Below are positions 18,301 to 24,300 of a stretch of 64,000 nucleotides of DNA, piece by piece (the stretch's first letter is position 1; the number at the start of each line of letters is the position of its first letter). Made by a program: the position numbers and the translations under genes. The DNA is from Brachyhypopomus gauderio (Eukaryota; Chordata; Actinopteri; Gymnotiformes; Hypopomidae), in the NCBI RefSeq assembly GCF_052324685.1, contig NC_135225.1, positions 14,526,110 to 14,590,109 of the forward strand. The letters are read 5' to 3'. The notes under the pieces are model-generated. The model had not been told where the DNA came from. It searched no databases and saw nothing but the letters and a program-made list of their open reading frames with translations.

Positions 18301-21300
18301 CTGTGCTGAGAAGCAGAGATCAGATCCTTCCCGCTCCTCCCGTGTGTCTCTCACTGAGGACAGAGGAGGAGCCTGGCTTCATCTGAGTTAGGAGTTCACT
18401 GGCATGTTTGTGTGTAGGTATTGTGGTGGAGGACTGCCTGCTGCTTCTGGTTACTCTACTGAAGAACAACAGCTCCAATCAGAACTTCTTTAAGGAGGGC
18501 TCCTACATCCAGAGAATGAAGCCATGGTTTGAGGTGGGAGACGACAACTCTGGTTGGTCAGCACAGAAGGTCACCAACTTGCACCTGATGCTGCAGGTGA
18601 GGCAACGCTCACGTCACTCTCCAGTCCTGCAGGGGGCAGCATTGTGGTGGAGAGCACTTTCATGACTTTCATGAGTGAGTGTGACTATTTCACGTTCTTC
18701 TGCTCTAAACTGTATGCATGCTCTCTCCTCTAGCTGGTGCGGGTACTGGTGTCCCCCGTGAATTCTCCGGGGGCGACGTCGAGCTGTCAGAAGACCATGT
18801 TTCAGTGTGGCCTGTTACAACAGCTGTGCACCATCCTCATGGCCACCGGCGTTCCTGCTGACATACTCACTGAGGTCTCTCTCTCTCACACACACACACA
18901 CACACGCACACACACACACACACACACACACACACACATTATTGGTCCCTACTGTTATATGCCTGCGTACATACACACGAATACACACTTGCCAAGGTTA
19001 GACCCTACTGCTGTATGTATGTGTGTGTGTGCGCGTGTGTACACACTCACCCACCCATACACACACCAAGGTCACAGTGTACACACAAGCATAATGGGTG
19101 TACATACACACACACACACACACTCACACACCTGTCTTGTTGGGTTTCAGTCTAATCCTCCCTGGGAGCATCTGTGTGGCAAAGATCCCAGAGACGTGCG
19201 CAGTCCTTCTGTTAGCCCTCAACAGTGTCCATCAGTGTGCTCACTTAAAAGCACAGAAACTAGGAATTGAAGACGAACTTTGCCTACAGCCTGTTTTAAT
19301 CCTGTTTTGGGGGTTTTTGTTATGCAGACAATCAACACTGTATCAGAGGTCATCCGTGGGTCACAGGTGAACCAAGACTACTTTGCGTCAGTCAACGCTC
19401 CATCCAACCCACCACGGTGAGACTCCTCCCACTGTGCTAGTGAGACTCCTCCCACTGTGCTTGATTGGCTTTTGTGTGGGATTTTGCGCGCCATCACGCC
19501 ACAAGCTGATTTGGAGGGTCACGTTTAAACAGTAGCGTGTGTGTGTGTGTGTGTGTGTGTGTGTGTGTGTGTGTGTGTGTGTGTGTGTGTGTGTGTGTGT
19601 GTGTGTGTGTGTGTGTGTGTGTGTGTGTGTGTGTGTGTGTGTGTGTGTGTGTGTGTGTGTGTGTGTGTGTTCCAGTCCTGCTATCGTGGTGCTGCTGATG
19701 TCGATGGTAAACGAGCGGCAGCCGTTCGTGCTACGCTGTGCTGTGCTCTACTGCTTCCAGTGTTTCCTCTACAAGAACCAGAAGGGCCAAAGCGAGATAG
19801 TGGCCACTCTGCTGCCCTCCACTATAGACGGTAAACACTACCACAGCCCTCCACTACAGACGGTAAACACTACCACAGCCCTCCACTATAGACGGTAAAC
19901 ACTACCACAGCCCTCCACTATAGACGGTAAACACTACCACAGCCCTCCACTATAGACTGTAAACACTACCACAGCCCTCCACTATAGACGGTAAACACTA
20001 CCACAGCCCTCCACTATAGACGGTAAACACTACCACAGCCCTCCACTACAGACGGTAAACACTACCACAGCCCTCCACTATAGACGGTAAACACTACCAC
20101 AGCCCTCCACTATAGACGGTAAACACTACCACAGCCCTCCACTATAGACGGTAAACACTACCACAGCCCTCCACTACAGACGGTAAACACTACCACAGCC
20201 CTCCACTACAGACGGTAAACACTACCACAGCCCTCCACTATAGACGGTAAACACTACCACAGCCCTCCACTATAGACGGTAAACACTACCACAGCCCTCC
20301 ACTATAGACGGTAAACACTACCACAGCCCTCCACTATAGACGGTAAACACTACCACAGCCCTCCACTACAGACGGTAAACACTACCACAGCCCTCCACTA
20401 TAGACGGTAAACACTACCACAGACACTACCACAGCCCTCCACTACAGATGGTAAACACTACCACAGCCCTCCACTATAGACGGTAAACACTACCACAGCC
20501 CTCCACTATAGACGGCAAACACTACCACAGCCCTCCACTACAGACGGTAAACACTACCACAGCCCTCCACTATAGACGGTAAACACTACCACAGCCCTCC
20601 ACTATAGACGGTAAACACTACCACAGCCCTCCACTACAGACGGTAAACACTACCACAGCCCTCCACTACAGACGGTAAACACTACCACAGCCCTCCACTA
20701 CAGACGGTAAACACTACCACAGCCCTCCACTATAGACGGTAAACACTACCACAGCCCTCCACTATAGACGGTAAACACTACCACAGCCCTCCACTATAGA
20801 CGGTAAACACTACCACAGCCCTCCACTATTGACGGTAAACACTACCACAGCCCTCCACTACAGACGGTAAACACTACCACAGCCCTCCACTACAGACGGT
20901 AAACACTACCCTCCACTACAGACGGTAAACACTACCACAGCCCTCCACTACAGACGGTAAACACTACCACAGCCCTCCACTACAGACGGTAAACACTACC
21001 ACAGCCCTCCACTACAGACGGTAAACACTACCACAGCCCTCCACTACAGACGGTAAACACTACCACAGCCCTCCACTATAGACGGTAAACACTACCACAG
21101 CCCTCCACTACAGACGGTAAACACTACCACAGCCCTCCACTACAGACGGTAAACACTACCACAGCCCTCCACTATAGACGGTAAACACTACCACAGCCCT
21201 CCACTATAGACGGTAAACACTACCACAGCCCTCCACTATTGACGGTAAACACTACCACAGCCCTCCACTACAGACGGTAAACACTACCCCAGCCCTCCAC

Positions 21301-24300
21301 TACAGACGGTAAACACTACCACAGCCCTCCACTACAGACGGTAAACACTACCACAGCCCTCCACTACAGACGGTAAACACTACCACAGCCCTCCACTATA
21401 GACGGTAAACACTACCACAGCCCTCCACTACAGACGGTAAACACTACCACAGCCCTCCACTATAGACGGTAAACACTACCACAGCCCTCCACTATAGACG
21501 GTAAACACTACCACAGCCCTCCGATATAAACGGTAAACACTACCACAGCCCTCCACTATAGACGGTAAACACTACCACAGCCCTCCACTATAGACGGTAA
21601 ACACTACCACAGCCCTCCGCTACAGACGGTAAACACTAACAGCACTGTCTCTCCTTTCTGTCCCCAGCTCTCCTTCTTTCTGTCGTTTCACGCATCTCCT
21701 CCATGTCTCCCCCTCTCTCCCCCAGCGAACTCCATCTCCGCGGGGCAGCTGCTCTGCGGGGGCCTGTTCTCGGCCGACTCTCTGTCTAACTGGTGTGCCG
21801 CTGTGGCGTTGGGCCACGCCCTGCAGGACAACCTCACCCAGAAGGAGCAACTTCTGCGAGTGCAGCTGGCCACCAGCCTGGGCAAACCACCCGTCTCTCT
21901 CCTCCAGCAGTGCACCAACATCCTGTCCCAGGTAGCCCCGCCCACCACCTGCCTATTTAAGCAGTGCAGCAGCACCCTGTCCCATCTACCTATTTCTGCA
22001 GTGAACCAATACCAATATGGTGTTGCAGGTAGCCCCGCCCCGTCTCACTGTTTGATTGAGGTTGATGTACCTTAAGCACAGTGATGATCCAGTGTAATTG
22101 TTGAAAAACCTGACACTGGTTCACCATCTCAATCGGCTTTGGCTAAATGACAACAGAATGTATAAACGCAGATATCATCAGACTTGTCGAACTTTTGCCA
22201 TTGGTATGTGTGTGTCTGTGTATGTGGGTGTGTGTACATGTGAGAATCTGAACCGAGTTGCGTTGTGATTTTGCAGGGTGATAAACTGAGCCGCCGGGTA
22301 AGTGTGTGTGTGTGTGTGTGTTGTGGGCAGCAGGTTGTAATGGTCTGGCTTGGCCTCGCTAGGGTGCCCCTCCCCTTTCTGTTGATGTATTGGGGTGCTT
22401 CTGTTTCCCTCGTCCTCCTCCCTGTGTGTATCCTGCTGTTTTATTGTAACTGACTGACTCTGGTTCTGCACCTCGACAGCTCACTGTGCTCTCTGGGGCT
22501 TGTTGATTTGTAGATTTTGTCACTGCCATTCACCTTCTATCCTGTAGGGGGCAGCATAGCAGGGTGGACAGTGACTATTGGTTACCTCACTTCCTCTTTC
22601 ACCAACACTAAAGACTTTAATATTTGTGATTACTTTGTGTTGCCTCCATCTGTTTGGTTTTGTGTTACACCATTGGAGACGAAATTAAAAAAACCCCAAA
22701 AAGCATCGTCGTTTAATATTCACGTTTTTGCACAACTGCCCAACCACCAACACTGCTCCTTTTCTTTTGGCATGATCCTGTGGGTTTAGTCCTCCAGTCC
22801 CCTCTGAGAGCTGACCTTTGACCCCGCGGTCACATGTTCAGCTTCGACGCAACGCACCGCTAGTCACTTGCTCTCACAGACCAAAGAGAACAATTGTGTT
22901 GGATAGCAGAGCCCCACTGCTTGAAGGAACTGAGATGTCTACACCAGTTGAACAGGTGGATATTGTTGTTGTGATCAATAGAAGATGATGCATTAAAACT
23001 GCAAGATTTGAAGACTGTACAAGATTTGGGTTAGTTTCAGAGGCCTGGTCCTGCTTACGTTTGCAGTCCAGCACGGACACAGACGTTTGCTTCCACCAGC
23101 TCTGTTCAGGCCAGTTCTGCTGTCAATGGAGTGAGGAACACGCTGACCGCAGAGACATCTCCACTCTCACAGTGAACTGCTGCTGCTGTGGGAGGGAGCG
23201 CCCCCTAGTGGTGTGGGAGGGAGCGCCCCCTAGTGGTGTGGGAGGGAGCGCCCCCTAGTGGTGTGGGAGGGCGCGCCCCCTAGTGGTGTGGGAGGGAGCG
23301 CCCCCTAGTGGTGTGGGAGGGCGCGCCCCCTAGTGGTGTGGGAGGGAGCTCATTGTTCCTCCTTATACATTCTCCAGTGTTACTTGCTCTTTTGAACAGG
23401 GACAGAAGGAACGACACTGTCCACACAAACACACCACTTTTTGTTAATGTCCTGTGATGACACAATTTATTAACACTTCTGAGATGCTGCTTGTGTGGTT
23501 GCATGGTGGTTCTAACATTGTTACGGTGTTTGCTCTTTGCTGTTTTTAAAATAACCCCACTGGATTCAACAAGCTTTTGGTTTTGAGGGTTGTGTGTTGA
23601 CCTAATATTGCTTCACGGGTGAACCAGCTGTTGCATGTAGTTGAACTACATATACCTTTGCCTATCCAGCACATCCTGTAGTCTTATGTGCTGCTAAAGA
23701 AAACAGTGGTGTAACCAAAACAGCAGAGGTATGGTGTGTCAGCCAGGTTATTCCCCATAATATCTGTGATTGAGATGAGCTTCATCACTACCACAGTGTT
23801 TGCCTTCAGGTTGTGATTAAAGAAATGGCCCTTCATCAAATCACTGTATGCATTGTGAGTCTTCTGTCGGTTGCAATGAGTGACAGAAGTCATGGGATTC
23901 AACAAAATGATTTTGGTTCAAGTCACACAGGACAGTTGTTAACACTGCCATCTAGGGGTCAACCACATTACATACTGTAGCAATGTAACTGCAGTATCAA
24001 GTTTATTTGTATATTTTGCAGTCTTGATTCAAGCATAGTGTAGAGCATGTGTAGAGCATGCCTGAGACTAAAGACTGTGTTTGACCAATCAGCAGCCAGC
24101 TCTGACTATGATGCACTAAGATGGGCACTCAAGGATTTTGGGAGGCTTTGGAAACAATTTGGGTCTTTTGGACACTTTCGGTTTTCAGATTTGAATAGCC
24201 ATCAGCACTTCTAGCCTTCCATCAACTGCTTTGCCCATAACTACACTAGGATAACATGCAGAAAGGATGCTGTGGTTGTGTAAAACAATCCTGTTCTCTC

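Follow-up and report, generated by a model that had tools for sequence, protein, structure and literature searches.

Anatomy of the uso1 donor array and its junction

How does a cell choose one 5' splice site (donor) when the intron behind it consists almost entirely of copies of that donor? This question is raised by a 64,000-nucleotide stretch of the genome of Brachyhypopomus gauderio, a South American knifefish of the order Gymnotiformes (NC_135225.1, positions 14,526,110 to 14,590,109 of the forward strand; hereafter the window, numbered from its first letter), in which a minisatellite nearly fills one intron of uso1, the gene for p115. A preliminary description of this DNA, made from the letters alone, had proposed that about 57 tandem donor copies lie in this intron, that each unit combines an exon end with an intron start in equal parts, and that the array begins within the exon; the unit parse bore out all three statements. 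We consider it very probable that the array is a neutral minisatellite spanning an exon-intron boundary, with donor 1 joined to the acceptor at 21726 and the extra donors spliced out. The features concerned are as follows.

19676..19830, plus strand: uso1 coding exon 12 (13 in the recorded isoform X2), entered in phase 2 and ending in GACG, placed by p115 matches and frames
19815..21639, plus strand: minisatellite of 57 donor units (56 with GT, one with GC), from Tandem Repeats Finder and the unit parse
19815..19846, plus strand: unit 1, holding the true exon end and the true donor (intron start 19831), from the unit parse and the frame
21629..21634, plus strand: last donor copy, the use of which would shorten the intron to 97 bases and lengthen the exon to 1953
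21636..21640, plus strand: branch-point-like CTAAC that arises from the altered last unit; its A lies 28 bases ahead of the last base of the AG (21666-21667)
21640..21725, plus strand: unique 3' part of the intron, with pyrimidine tracts, a competing acceptor (exon start 21668) and the real acceptor (exon start 21726)
21726..21931, plus strand: next uso1 exon, beginning NSISAGQLLCGG, placed by p115 matches and frames

Tandem Repeats Finder reported the array at 19814-21638 (period 32, 56.8 copies, 94% matches), and the parse resolved it into 57 head-to-tail units at 19815-21639. Fifty-four units are exactly 32 bp long, one has 44 and one 26 bp, and the last one, ending at 21639, has 27 bp. A full unit consists of the 16 last bases of the uso1 exon and the 16 first bases of its intron, and the first unit is the real exon-intron boundary. 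The sequence CCCTCCACTATAGACG followed by GTAAACACTACCACAG is present in 26 of the 57 units and recurs in another 21 with TAC instead of TAT as the sole change, while the remaining 10 are one pair and eight singletons. Thus two unit types make up 47 of the 57 units, which means that the inner units have been homogenised; the end unit is shortened and altered. GT is found in 56 units and GC in one, and the donor core reads GGTAAAC in 55 units, TGTAAAC in one and GGCAAAC in one. The TAT/TAC variants showed a periodicity at lag 10 (p 0.018, the best among 19 lags) that was not significant after the lags were counted. The next uso1 exon begins 86 bases after the array, in agreement with the gap of about 90 bases proposed earlier; the array had, however, been drawn as far as 21725, which is the end of the intron. 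The heptamer GGTAAAC also occurs in the coding sequence of the uso1 exon itself (19706-19712), where the recorded protein does not use it as a donor.

When a 96-base consensus of the array was searched against the 797-Mb assembly (with very common words skipped by the search), all 26 overlapping matches lay inside the uso1 array. Introner-like mobile introns would require many separate genomic copies and were rejected, as all 26 listed matches belong to one array.

Joining exon 19676-19830 to the sequence from 21726 onward gives the translation ...LLPSTIDA-NSISAGQ..., which matches the p115 structures PDB 2w3c (E 1.5e-67) and 3gq2 as well as PF04869 (E 1.7e-21). The best p115 match is the B. 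gauderio general vesicular transport factor p115 isoform X2, which reads STIDANSIS, i.e. donor 1 joined to 21726. Among the 120 p115 proteins listed (the best 120 of 2888 matches, including many isoforms of one species), 119 carry STIDANSIS across the junction and one carries STIDANSVS, and the array peptide is absent from all of them. The host exon had been called exon 14, a number that the count over coding exons (12, or 13 when the additional exon of the recorded isoform is included; 5' untranslated exons stand outside this count) does not support.

With acceptor 21726, the full frame is kept by donor 1 only (1 of 57). Donors 2 and 3 joined to the same acceptor shift the frame and lead to stops in later exons, and from donor 4 onward a stop is met inside the array at 19896-19898, which is the TAA of the third donor (codon 435; its coordinates were derived from exon lengths). 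The preliminary description had placed an in-frame stop by 19898 and the donors from the fourth on beyond a stop; the first is exact and the second is supported. Its claim that only the first donor is plainly productive holds for acceptor 21726 and for the recorded junction, but donor 2 joined to the competing acceptor 21668 also leaves an open frame, with 30 extra residues.

Donor choice and the origin of the array

What, then, could single out donor 1? The donor ACG/GTAAAC (the slash marks the splice site) is moderate: it was 22nd of the 35 window donors as listed, in a ranking by a weight matrix in which three of the 35 donors were placed one base off and scored as nonsense, and its predicted duplex with U1 RNA has -5.5 kcal/mol. 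The acceptor at 21726, in contrast, scores 10.9 (approximate matrix), the best of the 18 uso1 acceptors, which range from -2.3 to 10.9; the competing acceptor at 21668 scores 9.1, and the 54 CCACAG acceptors inside the array score -5.4 on average and -1.9 at best. A branch point at CTAAC would meet the AG at 21667 first, so that 21726 probably needs another one, e.g. TTCAC, whose A lies 35 bases ahead of the end of the intron. RNA structure was also considered as the reason for donor choice and rejected: in the predicted fold, the GGUA of each donor and a UACC form a 4-bp hairpin, which is identical at donor 1 and in the full copies and therefore cannot account for the choice. Over its first 320 bases, the array exceeded single-base shuffles in stability but did not exceed dinucleotide shuffles (z -1.05).

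We infer that a tandem duplication, falling by chance across a uso1 exon-intron junction, would have started the array, that slippage or unequal exchange would have expanded it to a minisatellite of 57 units, and that further turnover would have kept the units nearly uniform. As the extra copies are all intronic and lie upstream of a strong acceptor outside the array, they would be removed with the intron, and the array would hence be tolerated. Donor 1 would be spliced to 21726 while the machinery passes over the spare copies; most likely, donor 1 is recognised by exon definition, together with the upstream acceptor, across an exon of a normal length, 155 bases. The array is real and striking, and the evidence at hand points to an ordinary origin.

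Several observations weigh against this explanation. The acceptor of exon 19676-19830 is the weakest of the 18 in uso1 and the sole real one to score below the best in-array copy. The exon is preceded by a perfect (GT)67 tract (19537-19670) that ends five bases upstream of it, and the weakest of 18 acceptors behind such a tract weakens a simple exon-definition argument. In the predicted folding, donor 1 has a chance of 0.0011 of being unpaired, which is below the median of 0.0028 for the 57 donors. In experiments with duplicated donors, the one closest to the acceptor is often preferred; here this would be the last copy. Finally, the recorded B. gauderio p115 is a predicted model from a cluster of six sequences, of which this one was inspected.

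If the spare donors were instead used at a real rate, the array could be a sink of unproductive splicing that lowers or tunes uso1 output via nonsense-mediated decay. Such a sink would fit the retention of GT, in near donor 1 sequence, by 55 of the 56 further copies, the loss of the full frame by all of donors 2-57 with acceptor 21726, and the 97-base intron that the last donor would leave. However, no trace of it is seen in the recorded protein or the 120 listed relatives, although decayed RNA is invisible in proteins, and the donor bases are not specially kept. Three of the nine positions inside the donor (-3 to +6) are variable, compared with six of the 23 outside it (the tails of the three odd-length units were excluded); the donor bases are as variable as the rest of the unit, and no donor-specific constraint is seen in this test, which is weak because the units are homogenised. 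We regard the sink as unlikely. That the array works as a bank of decoy donors, whose many near-identical U1 sites are present together on the pre-mRNA, with a measurable fraction of transcripts using donors 2-57 and decaying and with copy number setting uso1 output between individuals or tissues, seems distinctly unlikely. The array might also gather U1 small nuclear ribonucleoprotein (snRNP) with an effect, either by titration or by protecting the intron from early polyadenylation, and 55 units indeed keep the U1-pairing core GGTAAAC. Yet each GGUA is half of a hairpin in the predicted fold, and the possibility, raised earlier as a question, that the array binds excess U1 snRNP was not borne out, the site being moderate and its bases showing no more conservation than the remainder of the unit. 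A cell contains about a million U1 snRNPs, far above any load from one gene, so the nascent RNA of a single gene could not deplete U1. An effect through U1 is highly improbable to us; a role as decoy bank or U1 sink, though possible, is unsupported.

Most units also contain CCACAG, 16 bases and then GT, and each copy had been thought conceivable as a 16-base mini-exon, spliced as such in tandem or in a stepwise, recursive relay. The in-array acceptors are nevertheless weak when set against the real ones, only two branch-point-like yTNAy sequences lie in 19831-21600, and chains of one to six mini-exons all reach a stop; we find this reading barely credible. There is also the assembly to consider, since near-identical copies are hard to assemble and the copy number, or the array itself, could be an error. 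The scattered single-base and length differences among the units speak against this, as does the fact that 1.8 kb fits in one long read, and an assembly error appears very unlikely, a wrong count being likelier than a false array. We thus favour the neutral minisatellite over these alternatives.

Repeats at other donors

Is uso1 exceptional in carrying repeats at a donor? Two further features of the window bear on this.

49938..50213, plus strand: second donor-spanning array, in coro2a, with the last 38 exon bases, the donor and (CA)n in four copies (donors 49976, 50038, 50114 and 50178)
19417..19461, plus strand: perfect tandem pair of 23-bp units, made of intron bases only, whose start coincides with the donor of the preceding uso1 exon

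The donor of the coro2a array is CAG/GTACAC, and CA repeats separate its copies; no B. gauderio record was present among the 120 protein matches listed for coro2a. Junction-spanning copies within the next 400 bases were found at two of the 35 window donors (uso1 19830 and coro2a 49975), and repeats on the intron side only at three more (uso1 19416, coro2a 50468 and coro2a 55841). In two further coro2a introns, short tandem repeats lie at the start, at the donor or a few bases from it (GTGGGTGCGT in 4.1 copies at 50469-50509 and a 22-bp unit in 3.3 copies at 55846-55917). Overlap with the merged array table, in which the coro2a row starts at 49978, was seen for one of 35 donors and none of 30 acceptors, some of the acceptors having been placed by eye.

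Elsewhere in the assembly, none of 60 sampled Sushi-domain exons had copies spanning the exon end; these exons were hand-picked roughly down a list of 150 Sushi matches, with near neighbours, a 928-residue open frame and some look-alikes skipped, and they cluster in gene families. Three of the 60 (L032, L033 and L050) have a repeat that begins ~20 to 50 bases past the exon end, and one (L052) has a CA-rich repeat that begins a few bases past the donor. The repeat of L050 (minus strand, ~45 bases into the intron) consists of four tandem copies of a pyrimidine tract plus CCCCAG, which are acceptor-like and not donor units.

Minisatellites with a period of 12 or more make up 12.7% of the window and 12.6% of the 180 kb of readable upstream flank (the fetched flank includes another 20 kb that read N), indicating that this genome produces such arrays freely. 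Their cover of coding bases is 1.2% (59 of 5044, with approximate exon limits) compared with 13.7% for all other bases, which would be expected if arrays persisted only where the protein is spared. Donors as duplication hotspots were considered and rejected: two of 35 in the window and none of 60 elsewhere is no excess given a minisatellite cover of ~12.7%. When 264 kb were scanned for donor-like GT in arrays preceded by an open frame, chance candidates were too numerous for the result to be useful. Most simply, arrays would arise in many places and persist at a donor because the extra copies are spliced out. Apart from this, the open frames of protein kinases form a large expansion, clustered in part, and many of them have 231 residues (contigs C10, C14, C73, C7, C2 and others).

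Comparison with mirages and other known systems

Most laboratory studies of donor choice have relied on a few duplicated donors. In uso1, a housekeeping gene, 57 donors of nearly equal local sequence stand in one native intron, and the recorded protein shows use of the first. The question of donor choice that the array raises is sound, and the value of the array is that of a natural experiment on it: a preference for the donor closest to the acceptor and exon definition could be set against each other by direct measurement, with the four-copy case of coro2a as a second point.

Repeats of a comparable build, called mirages, were reportedly first described by Canestro and others in 2002. According to the available parts of two papers, mirages are minisatellite-like tandem repeats across exon-intron boundaries that copy splice signals in lancelet genes (PMC3087553); their hosts are the globins BflGb6 and BflGb9, Adh3, troponin C and PGBD5, regular splicing is reported as undisturbed, and unequal or intra-strand crossing-over is proposed for their turnover (PMC3087553; PMC3902484). 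The uso1 array likewise spans an exon-intron boundary, combines exon and intron bases in each unit and carries a splice signal in its copies, and its 32-bp unit falls inside the 10-72 bp range given there for lancelet Adh3. In contrast to the mirages, its host is a vertebrate, it fills nearly the whole intron, its copies number 57 as compared to the six and three given for two lancelet BflGb6 haplotypes, and it copies the donor side whereas the BflGb6 repeats are described as copying the acceptor side. While regular splicing is reported in lancelets, in uso1 it is suggested by the junction of the recorded, predicted protein. The uso1 array thus has the anatomical features of a mirage, and its regular splicing has only indirect support.

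The mirage paper, in the part available, also connects mirages with intron gain by tandem duplication of AGGT-bearing exon sequence (PMC3087553). The uso1 array resembles this process in having tandem donor-bearing copies beside a coding exon. With an acceptor outside the array, however, and a protein junction free of inserted array sequence, the origin of a new intron need not be assumed in uso1. VNTR6-1 of TERT (38-bp unit), an example of the intronic VNTRs linked to splicing, is likewise a long intronic minisatellite of similar unit and copy number; the available part of its report does not describe it as copies of its own donor, whereas unit 1 in uso1 is the exon end itself (PMC11830802). 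No other boundary-spanning minisatellite of a vertebrate was noticed among the top matches in the open-licence literature. Boundary minisatellites, known from lancelets, also occur in a vertebrate, and uso1 represents a high-copy case.

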